Program-made: the position numbers and the translations under genes
Notes under the pieces: model-generated
Told to the model about the DNA's origin: nothing
The model's input: only the letters and a program-made list of their open reading frames with translations
The model's database searches: none
Assembly (NCBI GenBank): GCA_947624305.1
Contig: CANQKC010000009.1
Location: 1 to 64,000 of the forward strand
Direction of reading: 5' to 3'
DNA from: an uncultured Monoglobus sp.
GTDB taxonomy: Bacteria > Bacillota > Clostridia > Monoglobales > Monoglobaceae
Length of the DNA: 64,000 bases
Part shown: positions 9,891 to 41,758 of the stretch, piece after piece
How positions within the stretch are numbered: position 1 is the stretch's first letter
Layout of the letters: the number at the start of each line of letters is the position of its first letter

Positions 9891-10033
9891 AAAAAACCGC
9901 TTTGATTTCTCAAAGCGGCTGTTGTTTTAAACCGTCTTTGGTCGGAGCGTCACTCCCGGCATCTCTTTTGCCCGTTGCAATCGCACGCGGCGCATGAGGA
10001 CGCACTTTTCACCTCAAAGACATGTCTTATTGT
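9891..10033 (-). ncRNA. Short structured transcription unit (candidate sRNA or sORF mRNA)
   Basis: A self-contained minus-strand unit: a promoter with the start near 10033, several small hairpins (for example CATGC-GCC-GCGTG, TTGC-AACGG-GCAA and GGAG-TGAC-GCTCC), and a strong terminator (GCCGCTTTGA stem and TTTTTT, 9891-9920). The length is about 145 nt. It contains a 31-codon reading frame with an SD-like sequence, so it may be coding, structural or both. Confidence 0.5.
9910..10005 (-). CDS. Possible 31-residue small protein
   Basis: GTG start at 10005 preceded by GAGGTGA, stop TGA at 9910-9912 inside the terminator stem. The predicted peptide is basic and rich in Ala, Pro and Gly, without a hydrophobic segment; it starts MRPHAPRAIATGKRDAG. 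I do not recognise a family. The fit between promoter, SD, frame and terminator is the only support, and the RNA could instead be non-coding. Confidence 0.35.
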   Translation of the reverse strand: MRPHAPRAIATGKRDAGSDAPTKDGLKQQPL

Positions 10034-10489: not shown

Positions 10490-10554
10490 TCTTATAAACG
10501 GCGTCTTTGAATTTGTTTCGGAGAATTATGTCGAAAAAAACGGAAAAGTTTTTG

Positions 10555-10583
10555 TTTACATAATACCTCTGCTGTGATATAAT
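10555..10583 (+). promoter_or_regulatory. Promoter of AbrB/zinc-ribbon leader 1
   Basis: TTTACA (10555-10560), 17 bases, TATAAT (10578-10583) with a TGTGA extension before the -10. The predicted start (about 10590) coincides with the first base of the long hairpin. Confidence 0.8.
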
Positions 10584-10587
10584 CAAA

Positions 10588-10751
10588 GTTGCCAAACTAT
10601 TACAATATCTATCAATATGTATGCTTTTTGTTTCGACAAAAATGCATGCTCATATCTGGCGTACATTGCGATAGATAGGTTGATAGTTTGGCGACTAAAT
10701 CCGAGCATAGCGTTTTTGGGCGCGTTGCTCGGCTTCGCGCCTTTTTGTTTT
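10588..10751 (+). ncRNA. Structured attenuator-like leader 1
   Basis: Two 33-base arms (10588-10620 and 10663-10695) form an imperfect long stem sharing GCCAAACTAT and TATCTATC blocks, with an inner hairpin (about 10620-10647) between them. Then CCGAGCA (10701-10707) can pair with TGCTCGG (10726-10732). TGCTCGG lies in the loop of a terminator stem GGCGCG/CGCGCC (10719-10724, 10736-10741), which is followed by TTTTTGTTTT. A second closing pair, AAATCCG with CGGATTT, brackets the terminator. The two pairings are mutually obstructive, as expected for an attenuator. The same layout recurs at 41333-41495. Confidence 0.65.
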
Positions 10752-10787: not shown

Positions 10788-11027
10788 ATGACAGTTAAAA
10801 TCGACTCAGCCGGCAGAGTAGTTATCCCGAAGCTATACCGGCAAAAATTTAATTTAAAGCCGAACACGGAGGCCAACATGCTGCCCCTGCCGGACGACAT
10901 CGGCGTTTCGCTGTTCCGCCTGGTTCCGCGCTGCGCCAACTGCGGCGAGGAAAAAGGACTTGAAAAATTTGAGAACATATCGCTCTGCGAAAATTGCAGA
11001 CGGGTCCTAAAATACGCGCTGAAATAA
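10788..11027 (+). CDS. AbrB-like regulator with C-terminal zinc ribbon (copy 1)
   Basis: Seventy-nine residues. The N-terminal half is a SpoVT/AbrB swapped-hairpin DNA-binding domain (VKIDSAGRVVIPKLYRQKF). The C-terminal half has two CxxC knuckles (CANCGEE and CENCRR), forming a probable zinc ribbon. Such proteins are DNA-binding dimers; the target is unknown. TTTTTGGAGG precedes the ATG, and a longer upstream frame would run through the structured leader and is rejected. A paralogue with the same domain order and leader design is at 41513-41758. Autoregulation is a plausible inference. Confidence 0.85.
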   Translation: MTVKIDSAGRVVIPKLYRQKFNLKPNTEANMLPLPDDIGVSLFRLVPRCANCGEEKGLEKFENISLCENCRRVLKYALK

Positions 11028-11741: not shown

Positions 11742-11999
11742 ATGCTGGCAGAAATACGAGGACGCTCACAGGTCACAATTCCCGCCGATATTATAAAAAA
11801 GCTCGGCATCAGCGAGGGCGATAAATTTGACATTACCGAAAAAGACGGCGGCATATTCTTATGTCCGGTCGTTGTGTATCCCAAAAATAAAATCGCCAAA
11901 ATAGCCAAGCTTGTTAAAGACGCCGAGCAAGAGACCTCGAAACAAACCGCTTTTGAAAGCGTTGAGGAAATGTTCGCGGATATGGGGATCGACTCTTAA
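11742..11999 (+). CDS. AbrB/MazE-type antitoxin
   Basis: Eighty-five residues. It has an N-terminal SpoVT/AbrB fold (AEIRGRSQVTIPADIIKKLGISEGDKF) that would bind the operator palindrome, and a hydrophilic acidic C-terminal tail (SVEEMFADMG) of the kind that wraps a toxin. The start has AAAGGGTGA upstream. The stop is one base before the toxin ATG, so translation is coupled. An AbrB-fold antitoxin paired with a RelE-fold toxin is a known type II combination. Confidence 0.85.
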   Translation: MLAEIRGRSQVTIPADIIKKLGISEGDKFDITEKDGGIFLCPVVVYPKNKIAKIAKLVKDAEQETSKQTAFESVEEMFADMGIDS

Positions 12000-12000
12000 A

Positions 12001-12264
12001 ATGTATAAGCTGAAATACACCAAGACCTTTGAAAAACATCTGAAAAGCTTATCGCGCGCTGAACAGACCGCGGTGGCGAATAAGCTCAAATTATTAATTA
12101 AAGATCCGTTTTATCCGTCTCTGCGGACCAAAAAAGTCCGGGGTTTTGATGATGTGTTTGAAATGAGCGTTAATATGAACATCAGGATTTTATGGCGGTA
12201 TGAAAACGGCGTTATTATTCTGTTATTGGAAGTCGGACATCACAAAGACATTCTCGGAGTATAA
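12001..12264 (+). CDS. RelE/ParE-superfamily toxin
   Basis: Eighty-seven residues with the RelE/ParE pattern: YTKTFEKHLKSLSRAEQTAV, a central LRTKKVRGFDDVFEMSVN and a final strand pair IRILWRYENGVIILLLEVGHH. Members either cut mRNA on the ribosome or poison gyrase; the sequence does not settle which. It starts one base after the antitoxin stop, and an in-frame extension into the antitoxin gene is rejected. It is followed directly by a strong terminator. Confidence 0.85.
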   Translation: MYKLKYTKTFEKHLKSLSRAEQTAVANKLKLLIKDPFYPSLRTKKVRGFDDVFEMSVNMNIRILWRYENGVIILLLEVGHHKDILGV

Positions 12265-36989: not shown

Positions 36990-37009
36990 TAATTTATTCC
37001 TCCTTCCGT

Positions 37010-37140
37010 AAAAAATCCCTCGCAAACATACGAGGGATATAATTACGCGATAAAATTAATGTAATATATCATCCTCGGCAGGAATTATGGCGTTTACGCC
37101 CCAATTTATGCGGCTGCCCCCTGCTGTCTGCGGAATAATC
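37010..37140 (-). ncRNA. L10 autoregulatory leader with attenuator
   Basis: Between rplA and rplJ the minus strand has the L10-leader pattern: CAGACAGCAGGGGGCAGCCGC, a short GGCGTAAACGCC hairpin, then AATTCCTGCCGAGG that closes the stem. Further on, ATCCCTCG-TATGTTTG-CGAGGGAT is followed by TTTTTT (37010-37038), an intrinsic terminator just before the rplJ SD. L10(L12)4 is known to bind such leaders and repress. Confidence 0.88.
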
Positions 37141-37184
37141 TTAACAAATATTTATTTTAACACAAAAAACAATATTTGTCAATA

Positions 37185-41065: not shown

Positions 41066-41300
41066 AAGCAATACCTCCTTTCGTTTATGAATTTCTTCAA
41101 AAAACTACATTGGAGAATCACCTCCCCTCTTTAAAAGATGGGGGCTGTGCCGCCTTGCTTCGCCAATGTTAAAATTATCAAACATCTTTATTTATATTAT
41201 CATAGAATTACATTTTTTTCAAATTAAGTTTATATTACATAAATTAAATTCTCATTTTTTATATTTAAATATAAAGTTGAAATTTGTCGAAAAAATTTTA

Positions 41301-41329
41301 TTTACAAATTTTGAGGTTTATGTTATATT
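41301..41329 (+). promoter_or_regulatory. Promoter of AbrB/zinc-ribbon leader 2
   Basis: TTTACA (41301-41306), 17 bases, TATATT (41324-41329). The hairpin begins at the expected start, as in copy 1. Confidence 0.75.
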
Positions 41330-41332
41330 AGA

Positions 41333-41495
41333 GTTGCAACTTTTTTTAAATAATACTCAATCATCATTAGTATACCGTTTTGAAAAAACGTGTATGCTTT
41401 GGTTTTTTATACTAATGGTAGTTGGGTAAAAAAAAAAGAGTTGCGTTATGCCAAGGCTGCGTTTTTATGCGTCGGCTTTGGCCGGCGCATTTTTT
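41333..41495 (+). ncRNA. Structured attenuator-like leader 2
   Basis: The long imperfect stem has arms at about 41336-41374 and 41408-41444; the most exact block is CATTAGTATA paired with TATACTAATG. An inner CGTTTT-GA-AAAACG hairpin lies between the arms. GCCAAGGC (41450-41457) can pair with GCTTTGGC inside the terminator ATGCGTCGGC-TTTG-GCCGGCGCAT (41467-41490) and its T6 tail. Primary sequence differs from leader 1, but the order and pairing scheme are the same. Confidence 0.65.
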
Positions 41496-41512
41496 ATACA
41501 GGAGGTGTTTTT

Positions 41513-41758
41513 ATGAAGTACATATGCAGAATGAATTCGGACGGAAGAATGGTCATACCAAAGGAAATATGCAGGGAATTTAATATTGAAAAAGGAAATA
41601 AAATAGAAATTGTAACCGTTGATGATTGTGAGCAGATAATTTTGAAAAAGCTTAATCCGTCATGCGTTATTTGCGGGGCGGAAAAAAATCTTATAAAAGT
41701 TAAAGAAAAATTTATTTGCGAGAGCTGCGCGGAAATCAGCGCAAAAAAACAGGATTGA
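41513..41758 (+). CDS. AbrB-like regulator with C-terminal zinc ribbon (copy 2)
   Basis: Eighty-one residues: a swapped-hairpin domain (CRMNSDGRMVIPKEICREFN, EKGNKIEIVTVDD) and then a two-knuckle zinc ribbon (CVICGAEKNLI and CESCAE). It is the paralogue of the protein at 10788-11027, with the same domain order and similar length. ACAGGAGG lies upstream. An extension into the leader is rejected. Confidence 0.85.
   Translation: MKYICRMNSDGRMVIPKEICREFNIEKGNKIEIVTVDDCEQIILKKLNPSCVICGAEKNLIKVKEKFICESCAEISAKKQD

Follow-up and report, generated by a model that had tools for sequence, protein, structure and literature searches.

The window analysed here, a stretch of 64,000 nucleotides from an uncultured Monoglobus sp. 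(contig CANQKC010000009.1), encodes at positions 41513–41758 (+) an 81-residue protein with an AbrB (MazE fold) domain and a C-terminal zinc ribbon, as judged from domain matches and two C-x2-C pairs. The AbrB/MazE swapped-hairpin domain was recognized by both PF04014 (E = 2.7e-8, 34.1 bits; cut-off 24.7) and TIGR01439 (E = 5.5e-8, 32.4 bits; cut-off 28.3). Matches to zinc-ribbon profiles were weak, and the two C-x2-C pairs were invariant across ten paralogues. A paralogue of 79 residues is encoded in the same window at 10788–11027 (+); it matched TIGR01439 (E = 5.6e-8) and fell slightly under the cut-off of PF04014. The window also holds a possible toxin–antitoxin pair at 11742–12264 (+), consisting of a MazE/AbrB-type antidote (PF04014) followed by a small open reading frame that resembles RelE/ParE by eye.

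Upstream of the 81-residue protein gene we delineated a structured leader at 41329–41495, which we refer to as copy 2; all of its parts lie on the plus strand. Its promoter, TTTACA-N17-TATATT with an extended −10 TG, occupies 41301–41329 (−35 TTTACA at 41301–41306, −10 TATATT at 41324–41329), and the long hairpin begins with helix P1 approximately at the transcription start site. P1 joins 41336–41347 to 41433–41444. P2 follows, with a 5′ strand at 41354–41374 and a 3′ strand at 41408–41428 that pair in two blocks (41354–41361 with 41421–41428, and 41363–41374 with 41408–41419). At the tip is the inner hairpin CGUUUU-GAA-AAAACG (41376–41390), the 3′ strand of which forms part of an element that we call L (AAAAACGUGUAUGCUUUGG, 41384–41402). 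L is complementary to a second element, A (CCAAGGCUGCG plus U5, 41451–41466), which lies between P1 and an intrinsic terminator (41467–41495; hairpin 41467–41490 plus U6). The loop and 5′ part of the terminator contain T (41475–41482), the other possible partner of A. A Shine–Dalgarno sequence, AGGAGG, follows at 41500–41505, so that the intrinsic terminator stands before the ribosome-binding site of the downstream gene, as in an attenuator. The fold of this leader was better than that of dinucleotide shuffles (z = −5.4), and none of 200 shuffles folded equally well. A first-pass annotation had described the region 41301–41758 as a promoter, a long hairpin, an inner hairpin, an 8-base element, a terminator with T6 and a Shine–Dalgarno sequence, and we found each of these parts in place.

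The same annotation had proposed that a paralogous locus carries the same leader design. This second leader, copy 1, lies at 10584–10747 (+) ahead of the 79-residue protein gene and follows a TTTACA-N17-TATAAT promoter (10555–10583, +). It contains its own L (AAAAAUGCAUGCUC, 10638–10651, +), A (CCGAGCAUAGCGUUUUU, 10701–10717, +) and terminator (10718–10747, +), in which the T segment UGCUCGG (10726–10732) pairs with CCGAGCA (10701–10707). A first covariance model (R1), built from 23 AbrB leaders, matched copy 1 with 122.9 bits (E = 1.2e-20) and copy 2 with 106.5 bits (E = 2e-17); a second model (R2) gave 103.6 bits for copy 2 (E = 4.6e-15). Two known RNAs were matched by Rfam elsewhere in the window: a skipping-rope RNA at 9933–10022 (−), about 560 bp before copy 1 on the opposite strand, and an L10 ribosomal leader at 37001–37151 (−).

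Predicted pairing of A with L or T

Side-by-side comparison of 36 AbrB leaders, which form 12 families at 72% identity, showed that L, made up of the inner hairpin's 3′ strand and the bases or bulge that follow it (AAAAAYGCAYGCUC or ...GCUUUGG), is complementary to A with its U5, which reads GAGC..GCGUUUUU or CCAAGC.GCGUUUUU. The positions beside U5 change together, as G-C, A-U and G-U or as C-G and U-A. We compared the duplex energies of true pairs with those of permuted pairs, a test that ignores relatedness, although the L:T control shares that relatedness. Across the 12 families, L:A pairing averaged −15.9 kcal/mol compared with −11.7 kcal/mol for permuted pairs, and A:T pairing −14.0 compared with −10.1 kcal/mol, with 0 of 20,000 permutations as good in either case. 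The result was the same in 66 held-out elements that had not been used in forming the L:A hypothesis (L:A, −15.7 versus −12.9 permuted; A:T, −15.2 versus −12.8 permuted; 0 of 20,000 for both), whereas the control pairing L:T, for which none was expected, was null both in the AbrB-leader families and in the held-out set. A thus represents an antiterminator-capable upstream segment that is conserved by covariation in seed and held-out elements alike. The first-pass annotation had noted one of these two pairings, between the 8-base element GCCAAGGC (41450–41457) and GCUUUGGC in the terminator loop (41475–41482), and the A:T statistics bear it out; it had missed L as a further partner of the 8-base element and U5 as part of that pairing.

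The helices of the long hairpin were examined in an alignment of 89 unique elements (A4), in which 95.7% of cells were paired, compared with 81.4% after shuffling and 38–60% with partners slid; the alignment was fitted to P1 and not to L:A. P1 was paired in most of the 89 elements and showed two-sided, compensatory changes at all 13 of its pairs, and the L:A columns were 93.5% paired, with three two-sided pairs. The arms of P2 were cognate as well (−10.1 kcal/mol versus −4.5 kcal/mol permuted; 0 of 5,000), as were the 5′ strand of the inner hairpin and L (0 of 5,000). Two further contacts were considered and dropped. Pairing between the conserved 5′ internal loop and the bulge found no support in the cognate test. 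The other contact was a U-A-U triple helix formed by U5 with the inner stem; there, U5 would be antiparallel to the A strand, which is the arrangement of Watson–Crick pairing.

These results bear on two stronger statements in the first-pass annotation. It had called the pairings compensatory between the two copies; two copies are too few for that, and the statement holds instead on the 36 AbrB leaders and the 89 elements of the wider family. Homologous loci in close relatives likewise keep the pairings, with compensatory changes, which is the opposite of the outcome that the annotation had named as a refutation. It had also concluded that structure and not sequence is selected. The pairings are indeed kept through compensatory changes, but the wording is too strong, as sequence is conserved in the A/U-rich L strand, in A with U5 and in the 5′ internal loop. 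The conserved tip domain, made up of the 5′ loop UUUAAUAUU, the inner hairpin and the bulge UGCAUGCUCURUUUU, together with the covarying helices, constitutes a sensor-like domain upstream of the expression platform. Taken as sequence statistics, the data support the family itself, P1, P2, the inner hairpin, L:A, A:T, the terminator and the position before genes.

Distribution of the element

A search with the covariance model for further copies, which the annotation had suggested, returned 17 in the Monoglobus genome itself, the weakest at 58.9 bits and the next candidate at 23 bits, and matches in 41 of 60 relatives. Within the class Clostridia, the first model found matches in 75 of 291 genomes and the second in 78 of 381 good genomes and 47 of 220 genera, or about one-fifth of genomes; these many-genome searches score few candidates per genome, the E-values of the models are rough and most of the genomes are metagenome-assembled. 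In a phylum-wide control sample of 249, the Monoglobus genome was the only match, with none in the 248 others, most of those listed coming from other classes. Full counts ranged from 1 copy (G008) to 37 (G001), the ten remaining genomes of that search having 7–17; altogether, all but one of 13 fully counted genomes carried 7–37 copies. The original observation is confirmed, and its extent is much larger than the two loci from which it came.

Tandem pairs and triples of the element occur, and in one pair that we inspected, the second unit is preceded by a promoter of its own. Runs of three were seen at L155 (923–1652, −), at L217/L299 and at G313:C138:35008–35594; in the L155 triple, an AbrB/zinc-ribbon gene lies behind the last element.

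No Rfam 15 family reached its gathering score in either leader of the window or at 20 additional loci with the element, and when copy 2 and two other copies were scanned permissively against the same release, the only matches fell far short of gathering scores. This supports the proposal that both loci belong to one undescribed class of cis-regulatory RNA. We found no published description of the element in a literature search that left subscription papers, preprints and the supplements of PMC8040213 mostly aside. That last study, a microbiome RNA survey from a similar habitat, lists 3161 automatically predicted intergenic RNAs (Fremin and Bhatt 2021, PMC8040213). Its main text, with which we compared the element, contains no named class of this kind that we could find; the 3161 predictions could include the element, which may therefore coincide with an unnamed candidate of that survey.

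With up to 37 copies in a genome, one might ask whether the element is simply a mobile or repetitive intergenic sequence that carries a promoter and a terminator and has no regulatory role. One copy (G000:C25:26631–26801, L173) does lie just before an open reading frame that resembles an IS200 transposase by eye, and its L, A and T are nearly identical to those of the copy at C12:68843, which suggests occasional mobilization. We nevertheless regard a purely mobile element as very improbable: the copies diverge widely yet keep compensatory pairs, they keep one orientation relative to genes, and three signature patterns had no match in a collection of viral contigs, nor did the tested copy in a plasmid search. 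A profile search of viral contigs for the AbrB/zinc-ribbon protein found none. The pattern scans of viral contigs and the plasmid search thus gave no sign of a phage or plasmid origin, and we dropped it. Whole or partial elements were seen in two faecal 'Bacteriophage sp.' scaffolds marked UNVERIFIED, at L198 4110–4268 (MT837627.1) and L199 2170–2232 (MT835845.1); both scaffolds lack annotation and may be bacterial contigs.

Genes behind the element

Among 186 unique elements with enough sequence, 105 were followed by a Shine–Dalgarno sequence and an open reading frame of at least 40 codons starting 10–60 nt past the terminator (median 22 nt), compared with 0 of 186 in a mirror control. The other 81 had no open reading frame start at that distance; they may be free-standing RNAs or may exert their effect from further away. 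These 81 copies, together with the promoter and terminator that each unit owns, would fit a family of trans-acting small RNAs, in which the terminated RNA of about 165 nt is the product and L or A pairs with other transcripts or copies. We consider such a family improbable. It leaves the 105 elements before genes, set against none in the mirror control, unaccounted for, and A:T complementarity would be pointless without read-through. The 17 paralogues of the Monoglobus genome speak to the same question: among them alone, L:A and A:T were both cognate (0 of 20,000), so that L and A fit better within a copy than across copies, which fits pairing in cis.

In the Monoglobus genome, 4 of the 17 copies precede AbrB/zinc-ribbon genes; others precede genes for RCC1-repeat, BspA-LRR, SLH and other secreted proteins, and several have no close gene. 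That most of its copies are not upstream of AbrB genes had been missed by the first-pass annotation. Across all genomes, further targets included Cu-amine-oxidase-N surface proteins, an M23 peptidase and small cysteine-rich proteins. AbrB genes make up 23 of the 105 in the pooled list, a share raised by the seed set, and the 4 of 17 is the fairer figure. The target mix is one of regulators, surface proteins and small proteins, and we saw no common metabolic pathway among the downstream genes. Pfam found SLH domains in two of the scanned downstream proteins, with LRR, cysteine-rich, AbrB and other proteins dominating.

Two groups of downstream proteins recur. A small cysteine-rich family with GNxGKDCxGNG and CC..C motifs lies behind the element in several bacterial families (L165, L184, L191, L196, L208, L212, L263, L267, L271 and L284–L289); one member tested against Pfam had no match. 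Proteins with a CCFxGHRKV-like N-terminal motif, which look SLOG/DUF1273-like by eye, lie behind the element at L159, L254, L297 and possibly L168, and one of these also had no match when tested against Pfam.

AbrB/zinc-ribbon paralogues are frequent (a match in 55 of 60 genomes, some of them SpoVT), and the majority of the short paralogues in the genus are preceded by the same leader. It is missing from one paralogue type (L005-like) and from the AbrB/zinc-ribbon genes of G008, a genome in a single contig. In G006, the orthologue of the window gene (L007, G006:C10:1–95) lies at a contig start with different upstream sequence, and an element lies at the end of another contig of that genome (G006:C25:72–235); an insertion or an assembly break may have separated the two.

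The promoter has a 17-bp spacer in all 36 AbrB leaders and, together with an extended −10, in 109 of 120 elements overall. Both copies in the window also carry the box TGTCGAA, which we take to be a Spo0A box (0A box), at 41285–41291 (+; 16 bp upstream of the −35) for copy 2 and at 10529–10535 (+) for copy 1. Upstream of the −35, the box was present in 16 of 23 AbrB/zinc-ribbon copies, compared with 5 of the 97 remaining copies and with 1.9% of 110-bp background blocks, a count that relatedness inflates; before AbrB-type copies it stood mostly at −16 or −26 bp from the −35. In Bacillus, abrB is a target of Spo0A. By analogy, the AbrB-type genes behind the element may be Spo0A targets.

The recurrence of AbrB/zinc-ribbon genes as targets, 4 of the 17 in Monoglobus, and the fact that zinc ribbons can bind RNA would suit a leader controlled by protein, in which the switch is biased by an RNA-binding protein attached to the tip or to P2; an AbrB/zinc-ribbon paralogue acting in feedback could be that protein. 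We hold this to be unlikely, if less so than a trans-acting RNA: most targets are other genes, AbrB/zinc-ribbon genes also occur in genomes with no detected element, and G008, a single contig, has several of these genes and one element that does not adjoin them. AbrB-specific autoregulation as the main reading was dropped, as most copies precede other genes.

Proposed model for transcription attenuation

Our preferred explanation, which we consider probable, is that the element is a self-contained unit of promoter and leader and that it regulates the downstream gene through transcription attenuation, with A pairing either with L (OFF) or with T (ON). Transcription would start at the foot of the long hairpin, producing P1, an asymmetric loop and P2, with the U/A-rich inner hairpin and a 3′ bulge at the tip. 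A (GAGC..GCG plus U5) would then have two mutually exclusive partners, L and T. With A back-paired to L, the arms of the terminator would be free, the terminator would form and the gene would be OFF. If the inner hairpin retained L, or if a ligand or protein occupied it, A would be left to pair with T in the 5′ half and loop of the terminator, and the resulting antiterminator would keep the gene ON. We infer a functional competition between L:A and A:T, their assignment to OFF and ON in this sense and the existence of a signal. Judged by its sequence, the leader may work like a riboswitch or an attenuator, and we class it as a riboswitch candidate.

The model meets a geometric difficulty. L:A is a pseudoknot, with A at the foot of P1, few linker bases away, and L at the far tip, so that it can form only if the helix bends sharply where the asymmetric loop separates P1 from P2, or if P2 opens in part. 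L:A complementarity could also arise partly from the likeness of A to the 5′ strand of the inner hairpin, which pairs with L too. Energies set a second constraint. The terminator with A unpaired averaged −16.2 kcal/mol and the antiterminator alone −12.2 kcal/mol, and the terminator alone was the more stable of the two in 79 of 89 elements, so the ON state depends on kinetic trapping or assistance.

Since the copies within a genome are many and the genes they serve are unrelated, the conserved tip domain most likely reads one shared signal, be it a small molecule or a protein. As a metabolite riboswitch, the tip would bind a small molecule or second messenger directly and so set L:A against A:T. 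Conserved unpaired sequence beside conserved helices and the tandem copies fit this version. So does the large number of unrelated genes that the element precedes, with a bias towards surface and small proteins that one might expect of a second messenger. The lack of a metabolic pathway common to the downstream genes and of any likeness to a known class in Rfam tells against it, and we rate it as possible, at somewhat under an even chance.

Comparison with known RNA regulators

The attenuating leader proposed here resembles riboswitches and attenuating leaders in general in its 5′ position, its sensor-like structured domain, its exclusive antiterminator and terminator, the short distance to the Shine–Dalgarno sequence and its tandem copies. 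It differs from them in lying outside the Rfam families and having no known ligand, in a P1 that starts approximately at the transcription start, in a strand at its tip, L, that would compete with the terminator for A, and in its copy number in the fully counted genomes. T-box leaders (RF00230) share the long 5′ stem and the separate 3′ antiterminator and terminator, but the Rfam scans gave no T-box match and we noticed no aminoacyl-tRNA synthetase or amino-acid genes downstream. In Clostridia, c-di-GMP riboswitches (GEMM and c-di-GMP-II) control surface proteins from multiple copies. The element is likewise multi-copy and placed before surface-protein genes in Clostridia, but it has no match to these Rfam families. 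The SLH motif is a riboswitch candidate before surface-protein genes, partly in Clostridia, with about 60% of its copies before SLH-domain genes and with occurrences in Synergistaceae and Negativicutes (Stav et al. 2019, PMC6429828). Compared with this published description, the element differs in that SLH genes are a small minority of its targets.

As a tentative synthesis, to which we give rather less than even weight, the element would be a riboswitch class not described before, responding to one signal common to the whole cell, for example a second messenger, whether new or known. Through a three-way strand exchange of L, A and T, it would coordinate, in each gut-Clostridia genome, a dozen or more genes that encode surface proteins, small proteins and AbrB regulators. 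This exchange is a well-defined and testable model of how a 5′ hairpin could set a terminator. The element ties surface adhesin-like proteins, a small cysteine-rich family and AbrB-type regulators to one presumed signal, and it offers a direct handle for finding that signal. Present in about one-fifth of Clostridia genomes, often in a dozen or more copies, this leader RNA would rank among the more heavily used uncharacterized RNA regulators of gut bacteria.
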